From an uncultured bacterium (GTDB lineage Bacteria; Cyanobacteriota; Vampirovibrionia; Gastranaerophilales; Gastranaerophilaceae): a stretch of 64,000 nt of DNA. Both the position numbers and the translations under genes were made by a program. The stretch is taken from the NCBI GenBank assembly GCA_902765215.1, contig CACWZA010000007.1, forward strand, positions 1-64,000. The letters are read 5' to 3'. The notes below the pieces were generated by a model. It searched no databases. It was given only the letters and a program-made list of their open reading frames with translations, and was not told the origin of the DNA. The first letter of the stretch is position 1. The number at the start of each line of letters is the position of its first letter. This document shows positions 1 through 32,103 of this stretch, piece by piece.

Positions 1-3000
1 CTTTGTGGTCGTTGTACCTGCGTTTGTCAATGTGCCGTTTACCGTACCGTTGTTGTTAAAGGTACCGCGGGTTACGGTTATTCCGCCGTTGATTATTGTC
101 TGAGCGTCAGTATTTAATACTGCGTTTCTGTTATTAACGGTTGCTACTATTCCGTTTGAGTTAATTTTTACATGTTCTATGTTCAGAGTAGAAGCACTTG
201 CAATATTAAATCCTGTATAATCACCCATATTGATTGTAGAGATTGCTTCTTCTGTTTTTGCACCTCTGACTGTAAATGTATTTGCACCGGTATTACCCAA
301 GTCTTCTGTCACATCATAAACAGACAGTGCATCCGCAGTGACAAAGTTTCTGTTGTTAAGGTTTGCCTGGTTAACAAATGCAAGAGTATCATGATAAATA
401 TATGATGTTTCTCCGCCTTCTCTTCTGCTTTCTGTTATACCGATTGAGTCGTTTTCTGTATCTGTTGTAGCCAATCCGAGTTTACCGTATACAATTAACT
501 CAGAAATTACAGTATCTTTGTATTCTGTTGTCCAAGCATTATTTGTACGGGCAACAGCATTATGTCTTTCTTCAGGAGTATAACTTATTTCATATTCATT
601 GTTGCCAAACATTTCTCTTACATGATCAGATAATGCCAACTGTACTAAATTATCATAATCATGTGATACGAGTATCTGAACCTTATAATAAGGATCATCT
701 ATATCAGTAAAGTCCATACTGCCCAAAATGTTTATGTCAGATAATGTTATGGTACCGCCCTTGCTTACGGTCTGAAGTTCTAAGATATCGCCATAGTAAT
801 CTTCAACATTAAAATCTAATACCAAATTCAAATCATCATTCAGAGTTAAATCATTAATTATCAGAGTTGAAACATTATCATTTGCAACATCTAAAGTACA
901 ACCGTTAACAACGAGTTTACTTGTATAATCTATATCACGCAAAAGTTTCATTGTACCGTGATTAAGGTTGATTGTATCAACATAAACTTCACCTGCAAAT
1001 GTTGTAACATCGGATGAATTAGTGTTTACATTAACAACACCGATTTCACCGCCGATATACCCGTCAATATAAGAGTTATTTACGTTAACTACGGCATCAT
1101 CATTCATCATTAAAATCAGAGAATATTCATTACCTGTCAGTTTGACATCCTGCAAGGTCAGTTCTGTTTCATTTGCTAATATAAATCCGTCATTACCATT
1201 CAAATCTAATATTGATTTATTATTACCTGAAGTTGCACCCTGAATAGTGAACTTGCCTGCTCCTGTTACACCTAACTCGTCTGTCAGGGTATAAACATTT
1301 TCAGCATCTGCTGTCACAAAACTGCGTTCCGGAGCAGAACTTTGGTTCAACAATGACAAAGTGTTGAGTTTTGTATCAACAGAATCTCCCGAATAATTTA
1401 ATGCATTGATTATAACACTGTCATCAATTGTAGTTGTTTTGATAATTCCCAAAGTTAATATTATATCTACAGTATCATAATGATGTGTATAGTATTCACT
1501 ATCCCAGTCAGATACGTTAGGAATTTCATCAGTATAAGTGTAATCGTTTAATGTACCTGCATTGTATTCTGCTGAAGACAGAGCAAGTTTTAATCCGTTT
1601 GGAACAGTATTAATTACTTTAAGTATAGTTCCGACTTCAGGAAGGGTATCAGCCATGTGGAAATTAATATTATTTATAGTCAATACACCGTCAGAATCGT
1701 TAGCAACAGTAATTGTATCTGTCTGATTATTTACAAAATCCATATCTAAATCTATACGACCGTTTCCGTTAAGTATGTTCAGATTATGGTTAATGAAATC
1801 ACCGTCAGATATATTTAATAACCCGCTGTTGAGATTTAATGTACCCTCAATTACTGCACTTTCGTCAAGAACTAATTCTGAATTGATATAGGTTACACCG
1901 CTGCCATAAATTGTACCGTCCAAAGTACCTGACAGATATAAACCACCCGCATTGTTAACAGTACCCTGCAAAGTTGCAAAACCTGAAGTCAAACTTCCCG
2001 TATTAGTAATATTAATTTCATTTTGCTTAATTACTATACTATCAGCATTTGTAACTTCACCGATAATATTGGTAACCCCTGTGTCACCCGTAATTTTTGA
2101 TGCCAGATTACCGCCGTTTAAGTTCAGAATACCAGCATTTTTAATACTGTCAACTGTTGTAATATTTCCTGCATTGGTAACTAATGTCGTATTTTCTTTT
2201 ATATTAACTTCTGACTGACTTATTTCAGCATTATTTATAACAGTTCCAGATTTAATATTAATAATACCGTTATCACCGCTTACAGAAGAATCTAAAGTAC
2301 CTGCGCTTAAGTTAATAACACCTGCGTTTGTTATACCGCTTCTGATATTCAGGTTAGATGCACCTGTATCAACTTCTGCACCCGTATAAATTGTCATATT
2401 ATTTTGGGAAACTTTATTATTGAAAATAACTTTACCGTCATACTGATGTTCAACTTCATTTTCATCAGTCCATGTACCACCGATATTGATTGCACTTGTT
2501 GATACTGAAGAATCTGTAATTGCACCGTTAAAGGTGATTGTACGCTGACTTGTAACGGTTTCACTTTCAACTTCTTCTTCGTAAGTTTTTGCCTGAAGGT
2601 TTAATACAGCATCGTTATTAATATCATTCAGAACACCTTCCGATGTTAAAATCATTTGACCGTAAGTTGGAGATAATTCATCATTATCTAATGAATATTC
2701 AACTCCTGATTTATTTCCTGTAAATTCAACGTTTTGAGTATCGGCAATAATATTCAGATTACCGGCATTATAAATAGCACCGCCAATACCCTCACCTGTA
2801 GTGAAGTTGTTTGTAAATGAGGAATCTTTTACGGTTAATGTTCCCGCATTATATAAAGCACCACCAATTTCGGCACTGTTTGAATCAAATGTTCCTGAAA
2901 TTATACCTGTACCATCATTGTATACAGCACCGCCGTATACTGATTTGTTAGATGTAAAGAGGGCAGAGAGAGTCATTTCACCTGAGTTATAGACTATACC

Positions 3001-6000
3001 CTTACCGCCGTCTGTCGTATCAAATACATATCCTAAGTTGATGTTTTCAGTGAAGGTACTGCCTGTGCCCTGAAGAGTACCTGCGTTAGATATTGCAGCA
3101 CCATCAAGAGCATCTGTTCTGTCATCATCTTCTTCTATATTTACTCCTTTATATATAGAGTTTTCAAAATTAACAGTACCGTTTTGTTTAACAATAATTC
3201 TTGTGTTGGTTGCTTTGTTATCGCTTTCATCAGCCACAATTCCTTCATTGAAGAATCTTACAACATCACCTGTTGTTTCTGATGTATCTCCGACATTTTT
3301 AATATTTAATAAACCGTTATGTACATATATATCCTGATCTGCAACAGAAGTATAGAGATTAATAGTACCGCCTGTCGGAGCAATTTTATTAATAGTAGTA
3401 ACATTACCAAGTTCATCAACAGTTTTAGTTGTATAAGCAACATTACCTGCATTTATATTTATTGTATTATTACCCAAAGGAATTGATGAACTTACTCTTT
3501 TGACAATTCTGTCATAAATATTAATTTCTCTCGCCTGAACTTCATCATTATCATTAGTGTATGTGCCTGCATTGAGGTTTAATACACCGCTTAAAATAGT
3601 AATACCGAGATTAATAGCATTAGTTGTATCAACCGTATATGAACCGTCAGGATTTTCTGTTACATCAACATTTCTGTAGTTACCCTGAATAAGCGAATTA
3701 CTGTCAAGTGCAAGTATATTAAAAATTCCGCTATTAAATACAGCACCGCTGTCACGCAAAGCTGTAACCGTAGATGACGGATTTACCTGCGAATAGTTAT
3801 TCGTAATTGTTGTGTCAATAAGAGTAAGATTACCGCTATCATTAGAGATAACCGCACCGCTAGGATCTTCACCTGCACCTTTATGAGAGAAGATATTGTT
3901 TGATATTACAGAACCGCTATCAACAACCAAAGTACCTCTGTTTTTAATTGCAGTACTGTAGGTTGTTGAGTAGTTATCATTTATGCGGGAATCTTTCCCT
4001 ATATAAGTATCCCCCTCAATAGCTAATGCCCCGCCATTATCACCACTTGAATAATCAATCTTATTATGGTGTATATTCAGATTGTTTCCAATATACGAAT
4101 TTCCACAAACTGATACAATTGTAAATGCATGACCTTCATTATATTCAAAAGTAGCATAATCACCTAATAATAAACCTCTATTAGCATAAATAGTAGTTGC
4201 CGTCCCAGATTCCGCAGTTGTTTTGTTACCGCTAAAGAGGGCATAATTACCAATCTGCGTATAACCGTTCAGGAATATACCACTTTGGCCATTTGAAATA
4301 CTTTCATTATCTTTAAAGGTAAAATAGTCACCTATTTTATTACTTTCCGACTGTGATGCCAGATATATTGTTGAACCGCCATAGTTTCCTTCTATGGTTG
4401 CATAGTTACCCATGGTAAGAAATGCTGATCTGATTGCGTTAGCTGAATCATAGTATGATGGTGAAGATTCAGAAGTATTTACATATTTATTATTCTTAAA
4501 GGTTGCATAATCACCGATTTCTACCCCGCCATTTGCATATATTGCCGATGATGAACTACTGCTGCTTGATACTCTTGATTCATTATTTTCAAAAGTTGCA
4601 TAGTTACCGATTTCAACACTGCCGGATGCAAATATAACAGCATCACCGTTTCCTGTATTATAATTACCTTTAAAGATTGAATTATCACCTATGGTAAGTT
4701 TAGAATTTGAATCCTGAATTGTTATAGCAGCTGCAGAAATGATTGCACTGTTATTTTCAAAAGTTACATTATCATCTATTGTAAGATTTCCGTTTGAAAC
4801 ATAAACAGCACCTGCACCTGTACTTGCATAATTACCTTTAAAGGTTACATCATTACCTATTTCCACATCACCAATAGAATATATTGCACCTGACGCACCT
4901 GATACAAGTAGATTTTCAAAGGTTGAATAATTTCCTATTGTAGTAGTACCTGTAGCATATAAAGCACCTGATGCCCCCGGGTGATATGGTATATTTTTTA
5001 TTGTTGCATAATTACCCACAACAATATTTCCGCCACCATCCGCATACACCGGAGCATTAGTACCGTTTGTTATTGTTATATCAGAAATAGTTAAATAATC
5101 ACCAAATTCAATACCGCCCGATTCAGAATATACAGACCCTGCCAATGTTTCTTCATTTATAAATTGAGCATAATTACCTATTGTAATTTTTCCACCTGCT
5201 GAAATATCAGCATAATTACCCGCATAATTGCCTTCAAATTTAGCATAATCACCTATCGTTATAGCACCTGCTGCATACAAAGTAGTTGATGTATCATAGG
5301 TACCAGTACTGTTCATAGTATTACTTTTAAAAGTTGCATAGTTACCCAGTTCAACCGTACCTGCTGAATACAAAGCAGATGTATAAGATGAAAGATTATA
5401 GTTACCTTCAAATTTAGCATAATCGCCAAATTCAACATGTGCACCGTTACCATATACTGATACTGCCGCAGAATGACCGTAACTGCCTTTAACCGTTACA
5501 TTGTCACCTGCTATCAAAGATGCAGTATTGGTTTTGCCTGAATCCGTTGAGCCTGAAATTTCAATTGTGCCTGAACCACCGTTTGTATAGTTACCGTCAA
5601 ATGTAACATTATCCCCTATATTGAGGGTTGAATAATCACCCAGAATATATATAGGAGTTGTGTTTCCATAACTACCGGTAAAATATCCGCCATTACCTAT
5701 TGTTAAAGTTACTCTGCTTGAACCTTCAATAGGAGCATTACCGCTTATATATATTGTACCTGAACCGCCTGTTGTATAATTACCTTCAAATTTTGCATTT
5801 TCCCCGATATTAACAGTTGAAGTTCCTGCACCTGTAACATATATAGCACCATAACTGTATGAATGAGTACCTTTAAAAGTAGCATTATCACCTATTGTCA
5901 AATTAGCCGTGCCTGCATTTAATACATTTATACAAATTGCTCCTGCTCCGCCATAAGATGAACTGCCTTCAAAATAAGCATTATTTCCTATTGATAAACT

Positions 6001-9000
6001 TGCATTTTCGGAAGTAATATTTATATCACCGCCATTTGTACTAAAGTTATTCTTAAATACAACATTATTACCAATAGTAACCGGAGCGGCAGAATATATA
6101 GCACCACCGTTTGCATTTGTTGATTTATTGCCTATAAATATTACGTTATCACCTATTGTCAAATCACCTGCATTATATATAGCGCCACCACTTCCTGAAG
6201 TGATATTATCCTTAAATATTACATTGCTTATTGCACCTTTAGAACCCGCTGCAAAATATAATGCACCGCCAAAATTAGAAGACTCTTGTGAACCTGCAAA
6301 ACCGTTCCATGAGTTTGTTATTGTATATGTTACGGCATCAGCAAAATTTGTTGTGATTTCTTCATTGGCATCATACATAATAATTGTACCGACATTTGAT
6401 GCTTTTAATGTATTACCGTCCGGAACAACAATACCTTTATAATGAGTTTCTGATGATGAATCATAACCGTTTATACCGTAGCCGCCGCCCTTAATATTAA
6501 GAGTTGCTTCCGTTCCCTGCATAGTGCCGAGATTTACAGTTACATTTTCATCAGCTCTAAGGGTATATATTCTTTCCGCTACGGTTTGATGAACTGCTGT
6601 ATACAAATCTGCAGCAGAGAAGGTTAAATCCCCTGTTGTATTTGCATAAGTAACGAGAATATTTAAATCATTCGGCATATCTATTGTAAAATTATCCTCA
6701 GACAATTTATAAACAGGCATCAAAGCTTCGTTATCCGTAAGGTTTATAACAACAGGAACAGCGTCATCATAATCTGCAATAATTCTGATTGAATCAATAA
6801 TTATATTATGAGTGACTTCTTCTTCCCCTTGTATCACAGAACTTACAATGATTTTATCCACTTTAGAATTTGCCAAATCAGCATCAATTGATAAATTCAT
6901 ATCAGCATTAAGGGTTAAATTACCCAAATCTACTGTTCCTGTTCCCTCACAAGATTCTCCTGTGTCCTGCATATTAATTCTGCCGCCATTAGCCGTAAAA
7001 TTATTTACATCTAATTCACATCCGATATCGTTAAATTTAATAGCCGCACCATCAGCAAGAATAAGATTATCAGCCGTGATAGCTCCTCTTGTTATCGTCA
7101 AATCAGAATCAATATATGTATCCCCTGAACCCTGAAGAGTTCCTGTTAAATAGTTCATGCCGGTATTTGTGATGTGCATAACACCGTTATTTGTAATTGT
7201 ATATAAATAAGGGTTAGGAATAGTCCCTACGGCAGTAGACAAACTTGCATCTTCAAGAATATTTAACTGCTTCATTCTCAGAAGTCCATTATTAGTAACA
7301 GCACCCGTAATATTAACCGTTCCGTAGAAATATTCTGAACTGCCAATATTAGAAATAGTACCTGAACCGAGGCTTAACTCAGCATCATCGCGTCTTAAAT
7401 ATACTCCGTTTAATACATCACTTGCTTTAATATTAACAGTACCATAATCAATATAAATTACTGAACTAACTGAATTATTAAAGTTTACTACACCTTTATT
7501 ATTCTCATCACCGACATTGATAGTACCAGAACCCATGATTGAACCGCCAAAAGTAATTGAACGCTGTTTTGTAACAGTTTCACCCTCAACTTCTTCTTCG
7601 TAAGTACCGGCTTTGAGATTTAAAATACCTCCGCTAAAATATATATCATTCAAATTACCTGAGGTTTCATCAACCACCATTTGACCAAAGGTCTCACTTG
7701 TGGGATTAGTATCAACAGAAGTAAATATAACGCCTGATTTGTTACCCGAGAACTCAACATTTTGTTCAGATGCAACAATATTCAAAGTTCCATAGAAATT
7801 TATTGCACCGCCACTATTCCCTGAAATATTATTAATAAAGTTTGTATCAGTAATTACAGAATTACCACCAATATATAACGCACCGCCTGATCCGTATGTC
7901 ATATTATTTCTAAACACATCACCTTTTGAAGTAGTCAAACCCTTACCGGAATATAACGCACCTCCGCCTGCTCCTGAAAGAGTTCTATTATTTTCAAATA
8001 AAATATTTTCCCCTAAAGATATTGTTTCATTAGAATATAACGCACCACCCGGGCCGCCTATATTTGTTGCAGCAGCATAGTTTCCGATAAATCTGACGTT
8101 ATCACCTACAGTGATAGTTCCACCATAAACTGCACCACTATACGAATATGTGCTATAGTTTGATTTAAATAATGAATTATCATTAATATTTAATGCACCT
8201 TCTATTGATACTGCACCACCAATACCTAAAGAATAGTTACCAATAAATATTCCGCCAATTGATAAACTCGAAGCATTACCACCAATAGCTCCACCCAAAT
8301 AACCACTATATGACCCCTGAGATGAATTCCCTACAAACACACCATTAACACTTACATTGTTACTGTTGATATTTAAAGCACCACCGTTTACAGTATTCAC
8401 ATTATTCATAAATACAACATTATCAATACTACCGTTAGAACCGGCACTGTAATTAATTGCCGAACCCGGAGATGTTGCACTCATACCATTCCAAGATTTC
8501 GTAATCTGAACATCAACGGCATCTGCGAGATTTGTTGTTACTTCACCATCTTTATCAAGCATTGTATATGTACCGACATTTTCAATATTTAAGGTTCGTC
8601 CGCTTGGAACGGTTATTCCCGAATAATGTTCATCAACTACCGAATCGTAACCGTTTATTCCGTAACCGTTACCGATAATATTCAGAGTTGAGCCTGCACC
8701 CTGCATAGTGCCTAAATCAATATACAGATTATCATCAGCACCCATTTCATAAGTGCGTGTTGAATCAGTCATTTGCACATAATGATACAAATCATCAGGA
8801 CGCATATATACAAATATTAATTTCCCTGTTTCAGGTTTATAGTGAACAACATATTTGTTATCAGGATTATGGCCCGCAAAATTTATTATTTTATTTGATG
8901 TTGTTGTTAAAGCAAAATTAGATTTCAAATAACTATCCGCAACAGTAATAATTGTGTGTTCCGCTGTTGTATCAGAAAGAACTTTTATATCACCTAATAG

Positions 9001-12000
9001 AAATTTGTATGTTGCTCCGCTTTCATCGAAAGATGTTGCACTGAAATTATCCGCTGACGGAACATCACTTGTTGTAGTTCCAACAAGGTCTACATCTATT
9101 TTGAGGTTCAGATTTGCTCCCAGAGTAACCGCCCCAAGCGTATTATTTTGAATTGCACCGTTTTGAAAATCAAGAGTACTTCCTTCTCCTACATTATCAA
9201 AAACATCTGTTGTTAATGAACCTGTTGTAACGGTTGAATCAGTTTGAGTAACAGAACCGAACTTAACTAAAGTATTTGCTTTTGCAATATGAAACTCTGC
9301 AGATGTTACATCATTATTGAATGTATAATCTCCGCCTTGTGACCAAACCTGTCTGTCTGATTCTGTCTTATTGATATTTATTATACCTGAGCCTTCAATA
9401 GTACCGTCAAAGGTTATAGAACTGCCCGTTTCCGCATTCAGATACACTGTACCAAGAGTATAAATATCATTGTATCTTGATTTAGACACACTGTCCTCAA
9501 CCCAATTAACTGTATTATCTTTAAATAATACATCGGTATTATCCGTTGCCTGAATATACAGTACGGTATTTTCCACCCCGTAAACAGCACCGCCCAAAGC
9601 CTCCATTCCTTCTGTTTCTGCCGTTGCGGAGTTGTTTTGAATTACGGAATTTTTAAATAACGGGCGGGCAGTACCTGCACCGTTTCTGTTCATATAAAGT
9701 GCACCGCCATAAGCATTTCCGCCTAATGAGGTTGCATAGTTGCCTGTTATTGTAACACCGTCATAACTTACATTTCCTCCTTGGAATATAGCACCACCCA
9801 TAGCATTACCGTCAACAGTCGTAACGTAGTTATCCGTAATATCGCTTCCTGTAACCTGTGTTCCGTTTGTATAAGCACCAAATTCTATTGCACCGCCCTG
9901 CCCGTTATTTGAACCTGTTGCTGCAACATAATTCTCTCTGAAGTTACCTGTAATAGAACCTGTTTTCCCACTACTATAAAACGCACCTGCAGAAGTCGTT
10001 GTATAGTTCCTTATAAAATCACCTGTAACAGAACCTATACTGTCATAACTGAAAACACCACCGACGTTACCTATAAAATCAGCAGTTATTTCGTTAATTA
10101 TATAAGTATAAGGAGTTGACCCACTACCAAAATAACTATATACACCACGTGCACTGTTATTCAGGAATAAACCGCTTATTGTACCTATTGTACCGCCTAC
10201 GTTATAGACTGACGTAATATTATTATCATAAAATACACCGTTTATAAGTTCTGAACGACCGCCGTTATACACAACACCGTTTTCCCTGCCTGTACCGTTG
10301 CCGACAAAATAAGAACCTTCTATATTCATTGTCCCGCCTGATTGGTTATATATGGCAGCACCGTTCCCGTTAGCAATCAAAATATTATCGTAAAACACCG
10401 AATCCGTTATATTCAAAGTGCCTGAATTCAGTACAGCCCCACCGTGCAACTGTTTGAAACCGCGCATTGATTTATTAACTGTTACAGCCGTAATATTATC
10501 GTCTGAATCTATTGTAAGAGTAACCGCACCGACTTCGTTGATATTAAGAGTCTGACCTGAACCGACTGTCACACCTGCAAAGCCACCACCGTTAATATCA
10601 TGCCCGTTACCGTTAACTGTAAGAGTTGAATTTTCACCTTCCATTGTATCTAAATTAAACTTAACAACATCATCCTTTGTCATTGTATATATTCTGTTAT
10701 CGACAGGCATGTGAACATAAGTGTATAAATTCTTTTCCCCGACAAGGAGCTGACCTTTGCTGTTTGTATTGTCGTCCGTATCAACATAGGTTGTATACAT
10801 TGCCGCATAATCTTTATTTGCGGAAGAGAAAGTCACAACATTATTATTAACAGCAAAATTATCCATTAAAACATAGTTTGCAATATCAATTGTTACAATA
10901 CCCGCATCATTAGCTAAATCAGATATTGCTGTCATATCTGCGATTACAAAATTATAATCACTTCCACTTCCTGCATAACTTGTTGCAGTGAAACTATCAC
11001 CCGTACCCGCATTAAGATCTAAATCAAGTTTTAGATTAAGATTAGACCCGAGTGTAACAGCACCGAGCGAGTGTGAATCAATATGAGTATTTCGGGAATC
11101 TATAACCCCGCCATTTGCATCATTTTTAAAATTATTCGCAGTTAATGAACCATAGGTTACATCACTATTAGTCTGTGTTGTTGTTCCAAATTTTACATTT
11201 GCACCATTATACAATTCAAAATGACCTATTCCAACATCATTATTAAAAATGTATTGCCCGCCTGTTTCAGAAACTGCAACTTGAGATTTAGTCAAATCAT
11301 CTGCAACAACCCAATATGTTTGCCCCGTATTACCTAAAAGAATTTTAGAACCTGTACTCGTAGTAGTTATTGTTCCGTTTACTGTAATAGATTGATTTTG
11401 ATTTGCATTAAGATATAATCTTGAATCAGTACGGAAACCAAAGTCGTTATAATCATCACCTGTTGCACTATAATTACCGATAGTACCTGTTACTGTTGCA
11501 TTGTTTATATTATCTTTAAACAGAACCGGTCTGTCTTTTGAAATAATATACACTGTAGACCAAACGTCAATAGCACCTCCTACGTCTGCCCACGCTGCAG
11601 CATTATTTGTAAAATTAGTATCAATGAATGTAGTAGCACCACCGCCACCGTTATTCACCGCTCCGCCAATTTCTTTTACAATATTATTTCTAACTTCACT
11701 GTTTATAATTGTCAAATTACTGCTATTACTTATTGCACCGCCAATTTTACAGTTATTACCGTCAAAAATAAGGTTTTTACCTGTAAAATATCCTTCATTT
11801 CGTATTGCACCACCGGAAGCATTACCTTCAGCATAATTATTGTTAAATGTGGCATTTTCAATATACATAACAGCATTACTACTATTTACTATTGCACCGC
11901 CACCGCCATAAGTGTAATAAGCATGATTACCTGTGAATACAACATTTTTTATAGAAACATTACCATTATTAGTTATTGCTCTACCGTTGAACCCGTTGAA

Positions 12001-15000
12001 CCCGTCGCCCGTAACTGTCGGAACTTCTTCCACAACTGTCATACCGACATTACGAACATTAAGTGTCTGTCCTGCCTGAACTGTTACTCCGCTCTTTAAA
12101 TTACCGTTAACATCATATCCGTTACCTTCAACAGTGAGAGTTGAATTTTCACCCTCCATTGTTCCGAGATTAAGTGCAACTTCATCATCTTTTTCCATTG
12201 AATATGTTCTGGCTGCAAGAGGGAAATGAATGTATGAATACAGGTTGTTTTCCCCGATCATAACCTGACCTTTGCTGTTTGTATTGTCTGATGTATCAAT
12301 GTATTTTGTATACATTGCAACATAATCTTTGTTTTCCGTAGAAAAATGAAGTAAGTCCTCATCAACCCCAAAATTATTCATTAATATATAGTTTGCAACA
12401 TCAATTGTTACAACACCCGCACTGTCAGACAAATCTGTTGATGATGCAAAATCTTTTATCACAAATTTATATGCATTTCCGCTTGTTGCATAACTTGTTG
12501 CAGAAAGAAAATCACCCGTTCCCGCAACTAAATCTATATCAAGTTTAAGACTGAGATCAGACCCGAGTGTAACTGCACCTAAAGAATGAGAATCAAAATT
12601 AGAGTTTCGGGAATCAACAACACCGCCGTTTGCATCATTTTTAAACTCGGCTAAATTCAGTTTACCGTAACTCATAGTAGAATCATCCTGTTCAACAGAA
12701 CCGAGTTTTACATTAGGACTGTTATATAAATATAATCTCACACCTTTTAATTCATTATTAAAGACATATTCCCCGCCTAACTGGGTTATTAACCCCTCTG
12801 TTACTTCAAAGTCTTCGTCCATTGTATATTTTGGTGCGCTGGCTCTGTTTAATTCAACTGATGAAGAGGTCTCCGCCTCAATAATACCGTTAAAGATTAT
12901 TTTTCTTCCTTCATTGGCGTTTAAAACTATTTTTGAACCTCTGAACAATACATCATGATACTTATAATTGCTTACACTTAAATTATCTTCGGCATCCTTG
13001 GTAATTGTACCGACTTTGTTACCATAAAACTCTACATCTTTTTCATCAGCAATTATGTAAGCCGTTGATCCATCCATCCAAATAGCACCGGTCTTATTAG
13101 AAGCAACATTTCCCGTAAAAGTAGAATCTTTAAACCATGTACTAACATATGACAATGATGCAACGGCAGCATTACCTGTAATCCAGTTATTAATAAAATC
13201 GGCAGATATATTATATAATGTCCCGCCATATATAACCCCACCGACTGCACTATTATTGTTATAATACACATTATCCCTAAAGGTACCGGAAATATTACCT
13301 ATCAATGTAGGAGTTGTCGCACGGATTATTAAACCCTGCATATTATTTGCAGTGTATGCTTTGTTACCTATAAAATCTCCCTCTATACTGTATACTTTAC
13401 CGCCATTTAAATATATAAGACCGCCGTTCATAGTATCAGTATTATTAATAAGGTTATCAGTAAATACACCTGTTATATACTTAATCAACCCGTTGTTATT
13501 GTATAAAAACAGCGCCGGAGCATTACTTGATCCGCCTGTAAATGTATTATTTTTAAACAATATATTTTGAGCATCTAATGTACCGTTGTTATAAATAAAA
13601 CGGGTAGCTAAGAAATTATTTATACCATCACCCGTAATGGTACCATCGCTATCCATACCGACATTTCTCATATTGAGTGACTGCCCGCCCTGAACAGTCA
13701 TACCTTTATGAGAGTTACCGTTTATACTGTAACCGTTACCTTCAACATTTAAAACTGCGTCTGTACCCTGCATAGTGCCTAAATCACTTCCGACAGAATC
13801 ATCAGCAGACATTCTGTATGTACGGACAGGTGAATTAACATTTACAGCATTATATAAATTTGCTTTGCTTACCTTCAAATCACCATCTGAATTGCTATAT
13901 TCAAAGAAATACTGAACCCCGTCAGCAACACCGTCAAAAGTATAATCATCAAAAAGTGTTCCGAAATAATTTTTCAGATTTGAATCTGCAATATTAATCG
14001 AATGAATTGCATAATCAGCCGCATCAGCAATTGTGTTTATTGAGATTATGTTTAATTTTGCATCATCAATTGATGATACAGTTCCGGAAAAACTGTCAGC
14101 AACATCATTATCTAAATCAATATCAATTTTTAAACTTAAATCTGAGTTTAATGTAACCGCACCAAGCACATGCGCATGTGTATTATCATTTCGTAAATCA
14201 AGAACCCCGCCGTTTGCATCATTTTCAAAAGCTGTCAGGTTAAGACTACCATAAGTTGTTGTTAAGTTTTCCTGTTCTTTTGAACCTAATCTGATATCCG
14301 CATTACCGTATACAAATAACTGTTGTGAATCAATAGGGCTGTTAAAATAATATGTTCCGCCGGTTTCGATATTTTCATCGGTTGAAGTTAATTCACTGAC
14401 ATAAACCTTACGGGTTGCATTTGGCTTGTTGATATGCAATTCACCCGTACCTTCAACAGAACCGTCAAAAGTTATTGACTTCCCTTCAGCAGCATATAAA
14501 TATACTGAGGCATAGTTTGCTATATCGTTATAAACAGCCGAATTAGAAACCGTATATGTTCCGTCACCGTTATCTGTTATTGTACCGACTCTGTTGTTTG
14601 TGAAAAGAACATCTTCTGCAACGGCACAAACAGATAAATTACCGCTGTTTGCATAAATTGCACCTGCAGCAACAGATGCAGCATTGTCTTTAAAGATACT
14701 GTCGGTGATTGTAATATTACCTGCTTCTAAATAGATTGCACCCGCTTTGACACCAACGGCATAGTTGTTTTCAAAAGTGGCTGTAATATTGTAGATAGTG
14801 CCCTGATCTTCCGATACAACAGTTCCGCCGTAGTCACTACCTGCCAAAACGTTATCTTTGAAAGTACCTGTAATGTTATGAATAACCCCTTGATATGCAG
14901 AAATTATCCCCCCGCGTGAAACCCCGCTTGGGATAATAATGTTGTTCTCAAAATTACCGCTTATGTTTCCAACCTGAGATGAATTGGTAAACATCAAAAA

Positions 15001-21294: not shown

Positions 21295-21342
21295 ATATAA
21301 AATAACTCTTGAAATTAATAAAAAATAGTTTATAATAATAGT

Positions 21343-21470
21343 GTAGGGGGAGCCTTACGGCTCCGGTCAGTCCCTACAAATTGCTTGAAATAAGAATCAA
21401 AATGTGTCCTAGTAGCCATAGGGCACATTTTATTATTTCTCGCCATTTGTTCTTCATAAGCATCACCTCC
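21343..21470 (+). ncRNA. Predicted antisense RNA opposite the copy 1 peptide gene
   Basis: Promoter TTGAAA-16 bp-TATAAT (21309-21336) would start an RNA at the G of GTAGGG at 21343. It would run through the complement of the 3' stem-loop and into the complement of the peptide gene. The same promoter layout occurs in copy 2. The 3' end is not defined, so the end coordinate is approximate. Confidence 0.4.
21374..21457 (-). CDS. 27-aa basic/hydrophobic peptide of element copy 1 (candidate type I toxin)
   Basis: The ATG at 21457 has AAAGGAGGTGA ending 6 nt upstream, close to the perfect anti-16S complement. The peptide starts MKNKWREIIK, then a hydrophobic stretch ALWLLGHILILIS, and ends NL. It matches the copy at 28941 at M1, K2, R6, E7, I8, I9, K10, A12, L13, L15, G17, H18, L20, I21, I23, S24 and L27, with the same length and same stop (TAG inside TGTAGGG). 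Size, a single predicted membrane helix and an overlapping antisense promoter resemble type I toxins such as TisB or DinQ. I know no family with this sequence. An in-frame ATG 6 nt earlier is too close to the SD. Confidence 0.65.
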   Translation of the reverse strand: MKNKWREIIKCALWLLGHILILISSNL

Positions 21471-21595
21471 TTTCACGCCATTTGGTCAGTTGAATGTTTG
21501 TCGCGTAGAAATGGAGTTCAACTTATGTAGACCGCCCTACAAAAATATATTAACATATTTTCCTGAAAATTGGAATAGTAAAAATCTTATGCCAT

Positions 21596-21667
21596 GTTTT
21601 GCGTTGAATTACATACTAACCAATAAGTTTCCGAATAAGCAAATGGAGGAGCTCTACCGTAGAGCAC
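21596..21667. repeat. 72-bp direct repeat, copy A
   Basis: Identical to 21894-21965 except for one base (71 of 72). It ends in a palindrome GCTCTAC/GTAGAGC and continues into GTAGAGCACTCCCC, a 14-base match to the D-arm side of the tRNA-Lys at 22242-22314. Both copies read as FALNYILTNKFPNKQMEELY in one frame, but the surrounding frames are not conserved. Confidence 0.75.
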
Positions 21668-21851: not shown

Positions 21852-21893
21852 AAGGACTCCGTTTGCGTTCAGCAAAAGGTGACTAAATGTCAC

Positions 21894-21965
21894 GTTTTGC
21901 GTTGAATTACATACTAACCAATAAGTTTCCGAATAAGCAAATGGAGGAGCTCTACGGTAGAGCAC
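21894..21965. repeat. 72-bp direct repeat, copy B
   Basis: Second copy of the repeat at 21596-21667, 298 bp away, with one mismatch inside the terminal palindrome (GCTCTACGGTAGAGC). The DNA between the copies holds the tRNA-Lys fragment, so the two repeats frame a small rearranged unit. Confidence 0.75.
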
Positions 21966-22240: not shown

Positions 22241-22241
22241 A

Positions 22242-22314
22242 TGCGCTTGGCGCGATTCGAACGCGCGACCTATCCCTTAAAAGGGGAGTGCTCTACCTGC
22301 TGAGCTACAAGCGC
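22242..22314 (-). tRNA. tRNA-Lys (anticodon UUU)
   Basis: A 73-nt cloverleaf on the minus strand. Acceptor stem GCGCTTG/CAAGCGC with discriminator A; D arm with AGCTC...GAGC; anticodon loop CTTTTAA giving UUU; T arm GCGCG-TTCGAAT-CGCGC. CCA is not encoded. A terminator follows at once. Degraded fragments of the same tRNA lie 400-650 bp further along, so this gene has probably served as an integration or recombination site. Confidence 0.95.
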
Positions 22315-22420
22315 AAAATTATTTATTTTTCGACTACAAGGACTTTTCTTGTACCCTGCCCCATAAGTCTATCAAGAACATGTTTTTAAGTCAACTTTTA
22401 ATTTATTCACTCCGTTTCGC

Positions 22421-26459: not shown

Positions 26460-26555
26460 AAATTGAACCTTAATAAAATCTCAAAACATTTATATACTAG
26501 GATAAATTCAGACCAAATGTCTATAAGCCACACGGCTATATTTTTGAAGGGGGGA

Positions 26556-27309
26556 GTTTTGATTTACTCTTAATTTAAAATATGTTATAATAGAACGAAT
26601 GTTATCGGTTGCGGACTTATAGTTTTGATTCACTCTTAATTTAAAATATGTTATAATTTAGTGAGGCTTTAGGAGGCTAACAATGAAGTTTTGATTCACT
26701 CTTAATTTAAAATATGTTATAATTGATTTGTATATTGCGAAATACTGATATTAGTTTTGATTCACTCTTAATTTAAAATATGTTATAATAAAGCGGCAGC
26801 AGATATATGATATGGAGTAGTTTTGATTCACTCTTAATTTAAAATATGTTATAATTTTTATAAAATCTTCACTTATATAGTCAAGTTTTGATTCACTCTT
26901 AATTTAAAATATGTTATAATGCTATTCTTTTATGTGTATATAGGTAAAAGTTTTGATTCACTCTTAATTTAAAATATGTTATAATTTATGTCTCCGGTTT
27001 ATGCTGCAAGAATAGTTTTGATTCACTCTTAATTTAAAATATGTTATAATACAAAATAATTCTACATAATCGTACCTATGTTTTGATTCACTCTTAATTT
27101 AAAATATGTTATAATGCAATATTGACGGTTTTTATCCTATACCGGTTTTGATTCACTCTTAATTTAAAATATGTTATAATTTGTATTCGTTGAACACTTT
27201 CGGGTACATGTTTTGATTCACTCTTAATTTAAAATATGTTATAATGAATTTTCCATAAAATAGAATAAATCGTGTTTTGATTCACTCTTAATTTAAAATA
27301 TGTTATAAT
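26556..27309 (+). CRISPR. Type II-C CRISPR array, 12 repeats, 11 spacers, promoter in each repeat
   Basis: Repeats are 36 bp, starting GTTTTGATTC and ending ATGTTATAAT, at 26556, 26622, 26688, 26754, 26820, 26885, 26950, 27015, 27080, 27145, 27210 and 27274. Spacers are 30 nt (first four), 29 nt (next six) and 28 nt (last). Only the first repeat differs (C to T at base 10). Each repeat carries -35-like TTCACT at positions 8-13, 17 bp, and an extended -10 TGTTATAAT at its 3' end, so each spacer could be transcribed from its own repeat, as in Neisseria. The tracrRNA anti-repeat confirms the plus-strand orientation. Spacer sources cannot be told from this window. Confidence 0.97.
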
Positions 27310-27333
27310 AGGATATACAAAATTAAATAAATA

Positions 27334-27494
27334 TGATATAATAAAAAGGTAAAATATTTTAAGTTAAGAGTCCAATCATAATTGACAAGAGAATAATTGA
27401 TTCCTCTGCTTGTATGTACGAATAAATTCATTCTCTAAACCTTTAAAATTAAATACATCATATAGACATTCTATCAAAAAATTACCAGAATGTC
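27334..27494 (+). ncRNA. tracrRNA with its promoter
   Basis: An extended -10 TGATATAAT (27334-27342) would start transcription near 27348. The anti-repeat lies at about 27353-27382: ATATTTTAAGTTAAGAGT pairs with the repeat (one G-U), then a small CC bulge, then AATCATAA. Downstream, CAAGAG...CTCTGCTTG forms a stem, and AGAGAAT/ATTCTCT offers an alternative pairing. GACATTCT/AGAATGTC (27465-27494) makes a perfect 8-bp hairpin that may end the RNA, with only a weak T-run. It lies between array and cas2 on the strand opposite to the cas genes. The exact 3' end is uncertain. Confidence 0.8.
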
Positions 27495-27829
27495 ATTTGT
27501 TTGTATCCATCTTCGCCTGCATTCTTTTTGTATTTTGATTTTTTGTAGTTTGTTTTTTCTATATTAACGGATAAACTCCATTGTCTGTCCGTTAGGTAAA
27601 ATGCTGTTATTGTTCCTGTTTGCGGAGCAATCAGTTTCAAATTCCTGATATGAATATCCGTTCTGTCATAGGTTACACATGACCTTACATATATTGAATT
27701 TTGGAGCATAAAATATCCCTGTTTAAGTAAAGATTTCCTGAAAGCTGCCGCCTCTTTCATTTCTTCTTTTTCACCAACAGGCAAATCAAAACATACTATT
27801 AACCAACCCATTCTGTATTTACTCCTCAT
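27482..27829 (-). CDS. cas2: CRISPR-associated endonuclease Cas2
   Basis: 115 residues. Ferredoxin-like Cas2 fold with the N-terminal strand MGWLIVCFDLP carrying the conserved Asp, then RKSLLKQGYFMLQNSIYVRSC and TITAFYLTDRQW. It partners Cas1 in spacer integration. It overlaps the end of cas1 by 11 bp, so the two are translationally coupled. The last residues extend into the hairpin that also ends the opposing tracrRNA. Confidence 0.95.
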   Translation of the reverse strand: MRSKYRMGWLIVCFDLPVGEKEEMKEAAAFRKSLLKQGYFMLQNSIYVRSCVTYDRTDIHIRNLKLIAPQTGTITAFYLTDRQWSLSVNIEKTNYKKSKYKKNAGEDGYKQMTFW

Positions 27830-28772
27830 ATTCTCTGTTCCTGTGTTTATCTGTATGCAAATATTGTTGTTTTATTTCGGGTAAAAATATATTTGAACAG
27901 TCATATTTCATATACGCATCGGCTATTTTTTCTACATACATATCAACGCTGTCAACTATTTTATAACTGATTTCATTTATTTTTATACGGTAGCATTTTA
28001 TTGCCATTGATATATATTTTGCCCATTCTTTTATATTTTTGGAGTTATAATCATTCTCAAAATCCTGAACAAATTTATAAAAATAAAAATCTACAAATGG
28101 TCTGTAAACTTCCATCAAATCATATACAAGCGGAGTGCTGTTATATTTCCCCAAATGATGAATACCCAATTCCGGCAATAAACCATGAACAATAATTGCC
28201 CGATATATTAAAGTTTTAATAACTGCATAACCATAATTTAGACAAATATTTTCAAATTCCTCTGCATGTTCATGCTCTCTTTTTACAGGGTTTCCTATTT
28301 CATCAAAATAGTGTTTCCAGTATTGTCTTGCAATATTAGATTCACTAACAAGAGGTCTGTCTGCCAATTTGTACAAATTATGGTCATTATTACCGATAAG
28401 ATCAAGACAATCTGCCTGATTAACAACCTTTGTGTTCAAAACTTTTTTCCATAATCTGATTTCAAAATCTTCATTACGGGCAATCTGATTATAAAAAACT
28501 TTTGGTCTTACTATCCTCTGCAGAGGCAAACTCCACCCTGTCGGCTGATAGGAATTATTACAATGCAAAATAATAACATTAAATTCCAGTAACTTGGCAA
28601 GAGAACTGTTTGTGAATGTTATTCCATGTGTTGCAACAATTATTGCTTTTATATCAGCAATTGAAATCATATTGGTTTCACCTGATTTATATTTGCAGAA
28701 TAAAAGCCCCTTATCAACCGATATTGCACAGTTTGGGGTTGTTAAATGTAATATATGGTAACTCATAGTCAT
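27819..28772 (-). CDS. cas1: CRISPR-associated integrase Cas1 (type II)
   Basis: 317 residues. Cas1 integrates new spacers at the array. Type II Cas1 features are visible: N-terminal beta domain MSYHILHLTTPNCAISVDKGLLF, ISIADIKAIIVATHGITFTNSSL, and the catalytic helical domain with E in EFENICLNYGYAVIK, H in GIHHLGKYN and acidic residues in YDLMEVYRPFVD. An alternative ATG two codons in (28766) fits MSYH starts of relatives. Neither start has a strong Shine-Dalgarno sequence. No csn2 or cas4 is present, which fits subtype II-C. A foreign-looking peptide element separates it from cas9. Confidence 0.95.
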   Translation of the reverse strand: MTMSYHILHLTTPNCAISVDKGLLFCKYKSGETNMISIADIKAIIVATHGITFTNSSLAKLLEFNVIILHCNNSYQPTGWSLPLQRIVRPKVFYNQIARNEDFEIRLWKKVLNTKVVNQADCLDLIGNNDHNLYKLADRPLVSESNIARQYWKHYFDEIGNPVKREHEHAEEFENICLNYGYAVIKTLIYRAIIVHGLLPELGIHHLGKYNSTPLVYDLMEVYRPFVDFYFYKFVQDFENDYNSKNIKEWAKYISMAIKCYRIKINEISYKIVDSVDMYVEKIADAYMKYDCSNIFLPEIKQQYLHTDKHRNREYEE

Positions 28773-28940
28773 GCCATGTTTAATGACAATATTTTAAAAA
28801 ACAATATTTGTTAAGTTTTATTTACAAGCAAATGTATTAAAAATATGTTATAATTTTTCTGTAGGGAAGTCCTTCAAAACTTCCTCCTTAAACGCACAGC
28901 AAACATTCAACTGTCAACTGGTGTTGGAAAGGAGGGAGCG

Positions 28941-29024
28941 ATGAAAAAACATCTGCGGGAAATAATAAAGTATGCCCTACTGCTCATAGGACATACTCTA
29001 ATTTTTATTTCAAACATGTTGTAG
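28941..29024 (+). CDS. 27-aa basic/hydrophobic peptide of element copy 2 (candidate type I toxin)
   Basis: ATG at 28941 behind AAAGGAGGGAG. The peptide has a basic start (MKKHLREIIKY), a hydrophobic core (ALLLIGHTLIFIS) and ends NML. It keeps length and key residues of the copy at 21374-21457 while the third codon positions and several hydrophobic residues differ, which suggests selection on the protein. The stop codon TAG is part of the TGTAGGG arm of the 3' stem-loop in both copies. A single short membrane helix is predicted. Toxicity is inferred from architecture only. Confidence 0.65.
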   Translation: MKKHLREIIKYALLLIGHTLIFISNML

Positions 29025-29061
29025 GGACTGTCAGGGAGTTCATGCAGGGACTCCCCCCTAC
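28980..29061 (-). ncRNA. Predicted antisense RNA opposite the copy 2 peptide gene
   Basis: The TTGAAA-16 bp-TATAAT promoter (29095-29068) predicts a start at the G of GTAGGG at 29061. The RNA would be complementary to the 3' untranslated part and end of the peptide mRNA. The 3' end is a guess. The conserved promoter in both copies is the main support. Confidence 0.4.
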
Positions 29062-29100
29062 ACCTATATTATAAACTATTTTTCTGTTTTTTCAAGTATA

Positions 29101-32100
29101 TTAACCATTATATTTTGAAAATTTTGCTTGAACTAGATATTTTACATTTGTCAATACTTCTACTCCCGAATTGTCTATCAGCCAAGCAACACCAGCACCA
29201 TTTATTGATCTAATTTTATATAAACCTTTTTTAAAAGTATTTTTTCCACCAATAAAATCATCACAAACATTTATTAAACACCCAGAATAATAAATCTCAC
29301 CTTTTCTATATAATTTACACCCCATATTCTCTAATATATCATTTACATCGGTATTCTTTTGATTTGAATAAATAGTCATTACCTTTATGTTATTTTTTGA
29401 ATCATAATATAAAATTCTGCCTTTTTGTCCTTTAGAATGTTTAAATTGATTTTTTGTACCTTTAGTACCAAAATCAACAAATTCGCCTATTCTTTCTCTG
29501 CCGTTGGAATCTTTTTCCAATTCACCTTCCGATACAACAAGCATTACTTTTTTGATATGCGTTTTTCTTTTCGGGTGTATATAATTTTCTAACATATTTG
29601 TCCATTCTTTAGCGGACATTTTTTCTTCTAATTTTGATAACAAATCATTTTTGATAGTTTCATCAATAATATTTTTTATCTTACTTTCTTTTTGATCAAT
29701 AGAAGTAATTTCAACCCTGTTTGTAATATAGTTTTTACCGCCCTTTTGTCTTAAACCATAAATCGTTTCTAATGGTTTAGTATTACCTTTGAACGGTTTT
29801 TTATTTGCATAAGGATAAGGCATAATTGAATCAATAACCTCTTTTACTTTCAACGGGTTAAACCCGTCAATGATATCCTTATCTGTTTCCTTATCATATT
29901 TAAAATCTCTTGAATAACTGATACAAATAGCATCAAGAGCATGGTGCTTGTCATTACTTCTGTTTTTCTTTTCATCATCACCCAAGAAAGAATTTAACCC
30001 ATATCTTTTTCTTATAGCAAATGTTGATGCACCATTATTCACAAATATATGTCGTTTTTCACCCTCAACCTGAAGTCCCCAGCCGAAAATGAATGCCGTC
30101 ATTTGTTGAGCAACTCTTGCAATATGACTTGTTTCTGCAAGTCCGTTATAACTTTCTATTAATTTTGCACAGTCTTCCGGCTTACTTGTTAACAGTTCGT
30201 ATTTCTTTTGACCTAAACTACCTTTGATTTTGTTCAATCTGTTAACATAATCCGCCCATTTTTGCTCATCAGAGGATAACCATTCATAAGGCGTTCTGCC
30301 TTTTTTAAGCTGGTTTTGTTCCCTCAAGCATACAACCTTATTATATAAAGCATCATTTCCGCCCATTGTTCTCGGATAAATATGGTCTATTTCACATTTT
30401 GGAAAATCTGTTATCCCGATTTTTTGACCGCTGTATGCACAACTACCCCCCTGCATTTTTAGTAATTTATGCATTAAGAAATATTTACCGTTTAAAGCAT
30501 CTGCATCTTCTAATTCTTTTTTAATCTGGTCATTTTCTTTTTCCTGTGACTTCATATATGCTTCTGCTTTACTTGCTTTGACCTTACCAAATAAAGAATT
30601 ATCCGCACCCTCTCTTACAAACTCAAAAATGACTTCATCAGGTTTTCCATATTGATTTGCCAAATCTATTATCAAATCTCTAAATATTTGCAAACGGTTT
30701 CGTACAATCGGATTGGTTATATTACCTATCATAATATCCGTTTTTATTCTTGAACTGCTTGCATTTTTCGCATTTTCTTCTCTGTTATCAGAAATATATA
30801 AATTATTCCAATCACCAACTTTAGATAACATCGTTTTTATTTCTTCTTCAGTTATCCCATTAACAGCATTTTTATCATCAACAAATTCTGATATATCCAT
30901 TTCTGTCGGATACAATTCACCTGTCAGAATTATTTTATTCATAATCTGACATGCCCTGCGGCAGAATGAAGAACGACCGGATATATTTGCTTTCATAGGT
31001 TCAATTTTATCTATTATTTTTTTACCCGTTACTTCTTCAATATCTTTCTTAATTATAGTAACATCTAATCTGCCGTCTTTTTCTTTTACTTTTTTCTGCC
31101 ATTTTTCATAAATTGCACTAATTTCATCAGGACTTAATTTCACTTTTTCGCCTGACACATCCGTAAACCTGAGATTTTTGAGTTTCATCAATAAAACAAA
31201 GGTTACATTCTCTATTGTATCTGCTTTGCATACATTTCTTTTTGGTAATAGTTTACATTTTGAGATTATTCTGTTGTCAAAACGCGGAATTTTTTGTCCC
31301 AAAACACCTTGCCAATCTCTTTCAGTTCCCATAAATTTTCTGTAATCAGGATTTACTAAAGAGCCGTATGCCTCTCTGTATTCCCCATACAAAAATTCCT
31401 CTGCACTTATTTTCTTTAATTCAGGTATTTGTTTTTGTGCATTTTGCCATAAAAGTTGAAGTTCATTTTCTATTAATTGTCTTGGCGCAACATAATCAGT
31501 TGTTCTGACTTTTCCACTATTTCCAATACGAATATATGTCTTTAATTCCTGAGGTTTATCTTCTGCCCACAAACCTAACCTTACGGCATCGTAATAACAT
31601 GGAAATTTGTATTTATCAGATTGAATTAATTCAACATCATTTTCTTTTGTATATTTTTCGATAAGTTTTAAATTGTCTTCATCATCTTCTGATTTTGTAG
31701 CCCATGCAACATTCGGATCATAACCGCGTCTTTGAATAGCATTATGTATTGCTTTATATATTTGCCATTTTTCCAAAGGTTTTTCCTGCAATAAAGCAAT
31801 TCTTAACAAACAGGAAGTATAAATCGTATCATCACTTTTTCCGCCAAATTCTTTTGTGAATCGTTTATCTTTTTTATCTAAAACCTCTTGCCCGCACTCT
31901 TGCCATATTTTGTCAAAATATTGTTCTCTTGCTTTATGAGCATCTAATGTTCTTTTTATTCTTCTTCTATCCCTACTTGATACTCTTTCAGCATGGTCTT
32001 TATCTATAATTATAGAATTTGCCTCTTTTATATCATGACCTTCTCTTACACAGTAACCTATACTTGCTTTACCTAAATCAAATGCGAAAACCTTTTTTGC

Positions 32101-32103
32101 CAT
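29101..32103 (-). CDS. cas9: Compact type II-C Cas9 nuclease
   Basis: 1000 residues, near the small end of the Cas9 range. RNA-guided double-strand DNA nuclease. RuvC-I is at residues ~5-18 with D9 in AFDLGKASIG. The arginine-rich bridge helix SSRDRRRIKRTLDAHKARE follows at ~42-60. RuvC-II has E493 in VIFEFVREG. The HNH domain is at ~550-610 with D573/H574 in CEIDHIYPRTMGG and N residues downstream. RuvC-III has H720/H721 and D724 in HHALDA. All catalytic residues are intact. The C-terminal ~250 residues should hold the wedge and PAM-interacting domains. The start has AAGGAAG upstream. No csn2 or cas4 nearby, consistent with II-C. The PAM cannot be derived here. Confidence 0.97.
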   Translation of the reverse strand: MAKKVFAFDLGKASIGYCVREGHDIKEANSIIIDKDHAERVSSRDRRRIKRTLDAHKAREQYFDKIWQECGQEVLDKKDKRFTKEFGGKSDDTIYTSCLLRIALLQEKPLEKWQIYKAIHNAIQRRGYDPNVAWATKSEDDEDNLKLIEKYTKENDVELIQSDKYKFPCYYDAVRLGLWAEDKPQELKTYIRIGNSGKVRTTDYVAPRQLIENELQLLWQNAQKQIPELKKISAEEFLYGEYREAYGSLVNPDYRKFMGTERDWQGVLGQKIPRFDNRIISKCKLLPKRNVCKADTIENVTFVLLMKLKNLRFTDVSGEKVKLSPDEISAIYEKWQKKVKEKDGRLDVTIIKKDIEEVTGKKIIDKIEPMKANISGRSSFCRRACQIMNKIILTGELYPTEMDISEFVDDKNAVNGITEEEIKTMLSKVGDWNNLYISDNREENAKNASSSRIKTDIMIGNITNPIVRNRLQIFRDLIIDLANQYGKPDEVIFEFVREGADNSLFGKVKASKAEAYMKSQEKENDQIKKELEDADALNGKYFLMHKLLKMQGGSCAYSGQKIGITDFPKCEIDHIYPRTMGGNDALYNKVVCLREQNQLKKGRTPYEWLSSDEQKWADYVNRLNKIKGSLGQKKYELLTSKPEDCAKLIESYNGLAETSHIARVAQQMTAFIFGWGLQVEGEKRHIFVNNGASTFAIRKRYGLNSFLGDDEKKNRSNDKHHALDAICISYSRDFKYDKETDKDIIDGFNPLKVKEVIDSIMPYPYANKKPFKGNTKPLETIYGLRQKGGKNYITNRVEITSIDQKESKIKNIIDETIKNDLLSKLEEKMSAKEWTNMLENYIHPKRKTHIKKVMLVVSEGELEKDSNGRERIGEFVDFGTKGTKNQFKHSKGQKGRILYYDSKNNIKVMTIYSNQKNTDVNDILENMGCKLYRKGEIYYSGCLINVCDDFIGGKNTFKKGLYKIRSINGAGVAWLIDNSGVEVLTNVKYLVQAKFSKYNG

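Follow-up and report, generated by a model that had tools for sequence, protein, structure and literature searches.

A Predicted Type I Toxin-Antitoxin-Like Module with an Element-Specific Recognition Repeat in Gastranaerophilales

The window analyzed here, a stretch of 64,000 nucleotides from the contig CACWZA010000007.1 of an uncultured member of the Gastranaerophilaceae, carries two copies of a compact element that is likely to be a self-contained type I toxin-antitoxin-like module. This reading is inferred from comparative sequence analysis: conservation and co-variation are shown, whereas transcription, silencing, and toxicity are inferred. An initial annotation of copy 1 had described a 27-codon gene, sense and antisense promoters that face each other and in which the -10 is followed by 6 nt and GTAGGG, and a two-level 3' stem-loop, all of which held exactly where it had placed them. 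Its suggestion of a type I toxin-antitoxin system is supported by element-specific matching of the predicted antisense RNA to the mRNA and by strand-specific hairpins, with toxicity and expression still unproven. It contained neither the hairpin within the open reading frame (ORF) as a likely antisense terminator, nor the element-specific direct repeat, nor the separation of cas9 from cas1 by copy 2.

Anatomy of the Element

Copy 1, delimited by its homology to copy 2, extends on the minus strand over 21308..21561, from the -35 of the antisense promoter through the sense promoter. The sense promoter (21547..21555, minus strand) has an extended -10, TGTTAATAT, which is kept in relatives, and a poor -35. 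By direct reading, 6 nt separate its -10 (TAATAT) from GTAGGG at 21540, the predicted mRNA start, and this spacing is conserved. A predicted 5'UTR hairpin (21466..21516, minus strand), supported by a family-wide fold bias toward the sense strand, sequesters the ribosome-binding site by CUCC/GGAG pairing and holds the repeat DR5 (ACTGACC, 21484..21490, minus strand) in its loop. The conserved Shine-Dalgarno sequence AAAGGAGGTGA (21463..21473, minus strand) precedes the 27-codon peptide gene MKNKWREIIKCALWLLGHILILISSNL (21374..21457, minus strand), which starts with ATG at 21457 and stops with the TAG inside GTAGGG. Directly past the stop lies DR3 (ACTGACC, 21365..21371, minus strand), identified by comparison with DR5 and by folding, and its complement, GGTCAGT, forms a bulge in the fold of the predicted copy 1 antisense RNA. 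The two-level stem-loop (21343..21377, not assigned to one strand), with the sequence GTAGGG..GGAGCC-GTAA-GGCTCC..CCCTAC, is supported by covariation and folds and would form both the 3' end of the mRNA and the 5' domain of the antisense RNA. The antisense promoter (21309..21336, plus strand) consists of TTGAAA at 21309, a 16-nt spacer, and TATAAT at 21331, with GTAGGG at 21343 after a further 6 nt, and is conserved family-wide.

Two side features of the region may be recorded. Two 79-nt direct repeats (21589-21667 and 21887-21965, 96% identical) contain tRNA-Lys-like fragments and lie near an intact tRNA-Lys (22241-22315). Degenerate direct repeats are abundant at about 2500-14000, where the sequence looks like repetitive adhesin-like coding sequence.

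Distribution in the Gastranaerophilaceae

A structure-aware search for homologs, which the initial annotation had suggested, was carried out with a covariance model built from 16 copies. Among 383 genomes from 41 genera of the same family, 140 genomes in 27 genera contained the element, usually in 1-6 copies. Together with the two copies in its own genome, this indicates that the element is more than a chance arrangement. Genomes of the genus also each gave several matching stretches in a DNA search. In larger samples of the class and phylum, the listed matches were confined to the same family, and a broader covariance model added matches from two further families of the order, G070 contributing two and G074 one. 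Named records with the core pattern are 'Candidatus Gastranaerophilales' or uncultured metagenome-assembled genomes, mostly from the rumen. Searches of plasmids and phages (DNA and tblastn) gave no element matches, and Rfam gave only chance matches to the element at gathering and permissive thresholds. Short blastn matches in G047, G028, and other genomes were rejected as shared promoter or CRISPR-repeat-like stretches.

The distribution is multi-copy and patchy, with dispersed and tandem copies. The flanking genes are heterogeneous, any one Pfam family occurring in at most 3 of 80 flanking proteins, so that the element is a cassette rather than the leader of one particular gene. One copy (L233) is found on the predicted viral contig IMGVR_UViG_3300018493_000459 (8666-8840), near a CI-like repressor and an Mrr-type restriction endonuclease, and its peptide, MNEPIRQKIKCALNVIGHILLIISSLL, is identical to that of another copy (L084).

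Two further sequences are of separate interest. A copy from another family of the order (L215; G074 contig 49, 1-800) has CTG and no ATG at the start position, and the same terminator-like hairpin, AAGACCGGCGATTTTGTGTGTCGTCGGTCTT, on both of its flanks. In G069, the surroundings of the match at 1501-1532 of L016 contain a distinct small frame, MNDINLSLFLIILLILCIKNDAHLKR, preceded by AAAGGGGGGCGATGCT and with a TTGAAA-type convergent promoter close by, which may possibly be another type I-like cassette.

The Encoded Peptide

Nearly all of the 103 parsed copies have a frame of 24-29 codons after a Shine-Dalgarno sequence, ending in the TAG that opens (G)TAGGG. For the comparison of anatomy, the copies were grouped into 32 clusters (<80% identical); the frame is intact in all 32, and a recognizable Shine-Dalgarno sequence is present in nearly all. 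The peptides range over forms such as MKNKWREIIKCALWLLGHILILISSNL, MKRQIIKYALTILGHILQIISLFI, MNRELIKKALLVIELLIRLIIVLI, and MIQKVIKTTITVIIAVLRIIIIWL. Their sequences diverge and their plan is constant: short, mostly basic at the N-terminus (net charge 0 to +3), and hydrophobic over a stretch of 17 residues. None of the ten peptides tested had a match in Pfam or NCBIfam. The pN/pS ratio is 0.57 in the peptide frame, 0.75 and 1.53 in the other sense frames, and 0.59 in one antisense frame; because the last value is close to that of the peptide frame, pN/pS alone does not prove coding and is only supportive.

Homologs with a broken frame and preserved flanks had been named at the outset as evidence that would refute the type I reading. 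Only about 6 of the 103 examined copies are of this kind, having lost the frame or the 5' half and retained the antisense half. In L138, L136_1015, L103, and L141, the peptide is interrupted by frameshifts (at runs of A in two copies) or by premature stops, and the 3' stem-loop and the antisense promoter region are kept.

A Predicted Antisense RNA with its Terminator in the Peptide Gene

In most clusters, an antisense promoter consisting of TTGAAA or TTGACA, about 16 nt, and TATAAT lies beyond the stop codon. Comparison of the two promoters revealed that the sense promoter has a good -10 and a poor -35, and that the antisense promoter is closer to the consensus. On the antisense strand, a terminator-like hairpin with a T-rich tail is situated inside the peptide gene in 32/32 clusters. 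Its mean energy is -14.5 kcal/mol, compared with -4.3 kcal/mol for synonymous recodings, and just 2 of 320 controls were equally good. The pairs of this hairpin covary. G-U wobbles that can form only in the antisense RNA number 35, against 2 that can form only in the sense RNA, although 20 of the 35 come from one pair. The fold energies also depend on the strand, with the sense strand favored for the 5'UTR (p = 0.0005) and the antisense strand for the ORF (p = 0.00003).

In copy 1 the hairpin occupies 21399..21438 (plus strand), and the combination of this predicted intrinsic terminator with the promoter leads to the prediction of an antisense RNA of about 95-100 nt, running on the plus strand from 21343 to about 21438. 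The promoter, start, and terminator of a separately promoted antisense RNA are thus predicted and conserved, and no transcript has been observed. The sense transcript has no textbook terminator past its 3' hairpin.

A Proposed Recognition Repeat

DR3 recurs as DR5 in the 5'UTR loop over the Shine-Dalgarno sequence, and the two repeats match within an element and differ between elements; the 7-nt repeat is ACTGACC in copy 1 and ACTGTCA in copy 2. The longest stretch shared by DR5 and DR3 averages 7.5 nt within an element and 4.6 nt between mismatched elements, and none of 20000 permutations came up to the mean observed within elements. The result was replicated with 18 newly fetched copies, which had been found with a model that excluded the 5'UTR (6.2 vs 4.3 nt; 0/20000). 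This element-specific match implies that each antisense RNA would be able to recognize the 5' loop of its own mRNA. Folding supports the accessibility of both partners: the anti-repeat, in the bulge of the antisense 5' stem-loop, is 76% unpaired, compared with 40% for the whole antisense 5' domain, and DR5 is 63% unpaired, compared with 47% for the 5'UTR. The predicted duplex of the antisense RNA with the 5'UTR is on average more stable for own pairs than for swapped pairs (-23.6 vs -20.1 kcal/mol; 0/20000), although the lowest energy does not in every case belong to the own antisense RNA.

Copies in the same genome or in tandem are mostly each their own best match (in G000, 7 and 7 on the diagonal and 4 and 4 off it). 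Exceptions occur among close paralogs that share repeats, namely C184, C80, and C201 of G003 and the L094 tandem pair, so that the specificity is not absolute.

These data bear on the possibility that the antisense strand is itself the functional unit, a small regulatory RNA with targets in trans, to which the peptide frame is secondary. The best promoter and the hairpin resembling an intrinsic terminator are both antisense, as this explanation would have it. It is nevertheless extremely unlikely: the start codon and the Shine-Dalgarno sequence are retained, and from one element to the next the anti-repeat follows the 5'UTR of the cognate mRNA, which points to that mRNA as the target.

Predicted Pairing of the mRNA Ends

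It had been proposed at the outset that the 5' GTAGGG could pair with the 3' CCCTAC and lock the mRNA ends together as in hok-like mRNAs. This part held, and is supported by covariation of the ends in relatives, such as GTAGGA..TCCTAC (L037) and GTAGAG..CTCTAC (L043), and by element-specific 5'-3' pairing. The leader that follows the 5' GTAGGG is complementary to a 3' motif past the stop, as in CAGACTC/GGGTCTG, AGTTCC/GGAACT, and TAGTACC/GGTACTA, and the complementarity is greater for own than for swapped combinations (0/20000). In folds of the full-length mRNA, the first 21 nt form on average 11.2 pairs with the 3' region, compared with 5.0 for swapped and 2.5 for shuffled leaders; out of sample, the corresponding values were 7.6, 3.6, and 1.1. 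A toxin mRNA that is born translationally occluded, by the sequestered Shine-Dalgarno sequence and the 5'-3' lock, is supported by folding and covariation only. The agreement between DR5 and DR3 extends beyond the few bases that can pair with the leader, from which it is inferred that the repeat requires the antisense RNA as its explanation.

Copy 2, the CRISPR Locus, and Mobility

Copy 2 (28836..29098, plus strand), recognized by homology to copy 1, with which it is 73% identical, and by the covariance model, is a whole cassette between cas1 (27819-28772) and cas9 (29101-32103, with an HNH domain by Pfam) of a Cas9-type locus. Its peptide gene, MKKHLREIIKYALLLIGHTLIFISNML, is read directly at 28941..29024 (plus strand), and its antisense promoter and predicted start (29061..29095, minus strand) consist of TTGAAA-16-TATAAT with the start at 29061. 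In seven other genomes examined (L174-L180), cas9 and cas1 are adjacent without the element, and the element at this site is shared only by G003, a genome of the same genus. Conversely, G003 lacks copy 1 at the corresponding place. The element therefore reaches new sites by a route that remains unknown. No target duplication was apparent on inspection of the copy 2 sequence, which was not searched systematically, and neither transposon-like ends nor a link to a transposase was seen.

The initial annotation had offered, as an alternative, a mobile unit with inverted-repeat ends that carries a peptide gene. The occurrence of copies at new sites upholds this in part, yet transposon-like ends and target duplications were not seen, and RNA pairing accounts for the GTAGGG/CCCTAC ends. 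A related explanation takes the element for a miniature mobile unit or structured repeat with an incidental ORF, its conserved features serving mobility or transcription. This explanation has in its favor the new sites (copy 2 within cas9/cas1, copy 1 missing from G003) and the inverted ends. It is very improbable. Besides the lack of a visible target duplication or transposase link, the Shine-Dalgarno sequence, start, stop, and hydrophobic pattern persist over 32 clusters, and the element-specific repeats and 5'-3' pairing call for recognition between RNAs rather than for DNA ends.

The CRISPR array of the Cas9 locus (26546-27460) has a 36-nt repeat that, as in Neisseria-type arrays, ends in an extended -10 (ATGTTATAAT), and a partial anti-repeat, AAGTTAAGAGTCCAATCA, at about 27360 (plus strand) suggests a tracrRNA just past the array on the plus strand. 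The copy 2 promoter resembles the adjacent CRISPR repeat (AAAATATGTTATAAT), and a link like that of CreTA, a CRISPR-regulated toxin-antitoxin system, was considered. It was set aside, because such an extended -10 recurs at CRISPR-repeat spacing in a relative and because the spacers of the adjacent array had no match beyond chance to either copy; the crRNA-like antitoxin and the promoter-matching spacer of CreTA are features that the element does not meet. Separately, the antisense promoter of copy 2 (in the region 28773-29100) is directed at cas1-cas2 and could alter their transcription after the split from cas9.

Proposed Mechanism

In the preferred reading, a type I-like module, the sense RNA would encode a short, mostly N-basic, hydrophobic peptide, with its Shine-Dalgarno sequence hidden in the predicted 5' hairpin. 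The extreme 5' leader of the mRNA would pair with the region surrounding and following the stop, so that the full-length mRNA would be born locked, and 3' trimming or other processing may unlock it. A convergent RNA would start from the better promoter just beyond the stop and end at the predicted hairpin within the ORF, presenting in the bulge of its 5' stem-loop a sequence complementary to DR3 and DR5. This putatively unstable RNA would pair in cis with the 3' half of the mRNA and, via the bulge, with the 5' loop, which may block translation or make the duplex a target of RNase III. Loss of the antisense RNA would allow the peptide to be made, to enter the inner membrane, and to harm or arrest the cell. 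As each copy has a private recognition sequence, most copies in the same genome should not cross-neutralize.

The same cis-antisense control could also govern a non-toxic small membrane protein, such as a regulator or stress peptide, in which case the RNA logic would be right and the product would not be a toxin. Toxicity cannot be read from the sequence, and some small proteins under cis-antisense regulation are non-toxins. This explanation is nonetheless unlikely. The multi-copy, patchy, dispersed and tandem distribution with layered translational control fits a toxin-antitoxin system better, as do the neighbors of the viral-contig copy and the frame-broken copies that keep the antisense half, and one RNA chassis is common to very different peptides.

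Relation to Known Type I Systems

In the Fst/Ldr family, which includes par of pAD1 (RNA I/RNA II), repeats that vary among paralogs are thought to confer specificity (PMC7472228). The element resembles Fst/par in its convergent promoters, predicted short antisense RNA, direct repeats that would be transcribed in both RNAs, and Shine-Dalgarno sequence predicted to be sequestered by a stem-loop (PMC7472228). However, its peptides lack the PXXXG motif and the charged C-terminal tail of Fst/Ldr; no intact family peptide inspected contains proline, and the C-terminal net charge is -1 to +2. Also unlike Fst/Ldr, no shared bidirectional terminator was seen beyond the gene, the predicted antisense terminator being within the toxin ORF, and the 5' leader-3' end lock is additional. 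Fst/Ldr systems occur in Firmicutes or enterobacteria, the element in Gastranaerophilales.

In hok/sok and aapA/IsoA, the full-length toxin mRNA is inert through a 5'-3' long-distance interaction and a local anti-Shine-Dalgarno hairpin (PMC6733600). The mRNA of the element is likewise predicted to have an anti-Shine-Dalgarno hairpin and a 5'-3' fold-back, which is element-specific. The peptide has no Hok-type sequence (no Pfam or NCBIfam match), and in contrast to both systems the predicted antisense RNA lies over the 3' part of the gene and would gain access to the 5' loop through the direct repeat. MsoT1/MsoA1, a candidate type I system described in Microcystis in 2025, encodes a protein of 63 residues with two predicted membrane helices and has close homologs in Cyanobacteria (PMC12390103). 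Like the element, it comes from the cyanobacterial side of the tree, and its antisense RNA spans the 3' end of the coding region together with the 3'UTR (PMC12390103), an arrangement predicted for the element as well. The peptides of the element differ in having 24-29 residues and one hydrophobic stretch, and the element occurs in dozens of genera of one Gastranaerophilales family; no direct sequence comparison with MsoT1 was made. The logic of the element is thus closest to that of Fst/par with a hok/AapA-like 5'-3' lock, and by the features tested it falls outside Fst/Ldr, hok, and MsoT1.

A bolder reading, which is as likely to fail as to hold, is that the element represents a new architectural class of type I toxin-antitoxin systems, widespread in Gastranaerophilales. 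A fixed RNA chassis, comprising the 5'-3' lock, the loop-borne private repeat, and the terminator overprinted in the toxin codons, would carry very different membrane peptides of 24-29 residues, with a recognition code of its own for each copy, and would have spread to new sites, one of them within a cas operon and another on a contig predicted to be viral.

According to the 2025 paper that adds a first candidate from Cyanobacteria, type I systems had so far been recorded only in Proteobacteria, Firmicutes, and Tenericutes (PMC12390103), and no paper linking them with Gastranaerophilales was found in the literature searched. Annotation by known families misses the element because its gene has fewer than 30 codons and there is no Pfam, NCBIfam, or Rfam match. 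If the type I reading is true, it would provide a clear case of an RNA terminator written in toxin codons, and dozens of toxin-antisense pairs, diverged in nature, whose specificity of recognition between RNAs may be read as a short code of about 6-10 nt. It would also extend type I systems, in large numbers, beyond those three phyla to a lineage of the gut and rumen that is represented mainly by assemblies.
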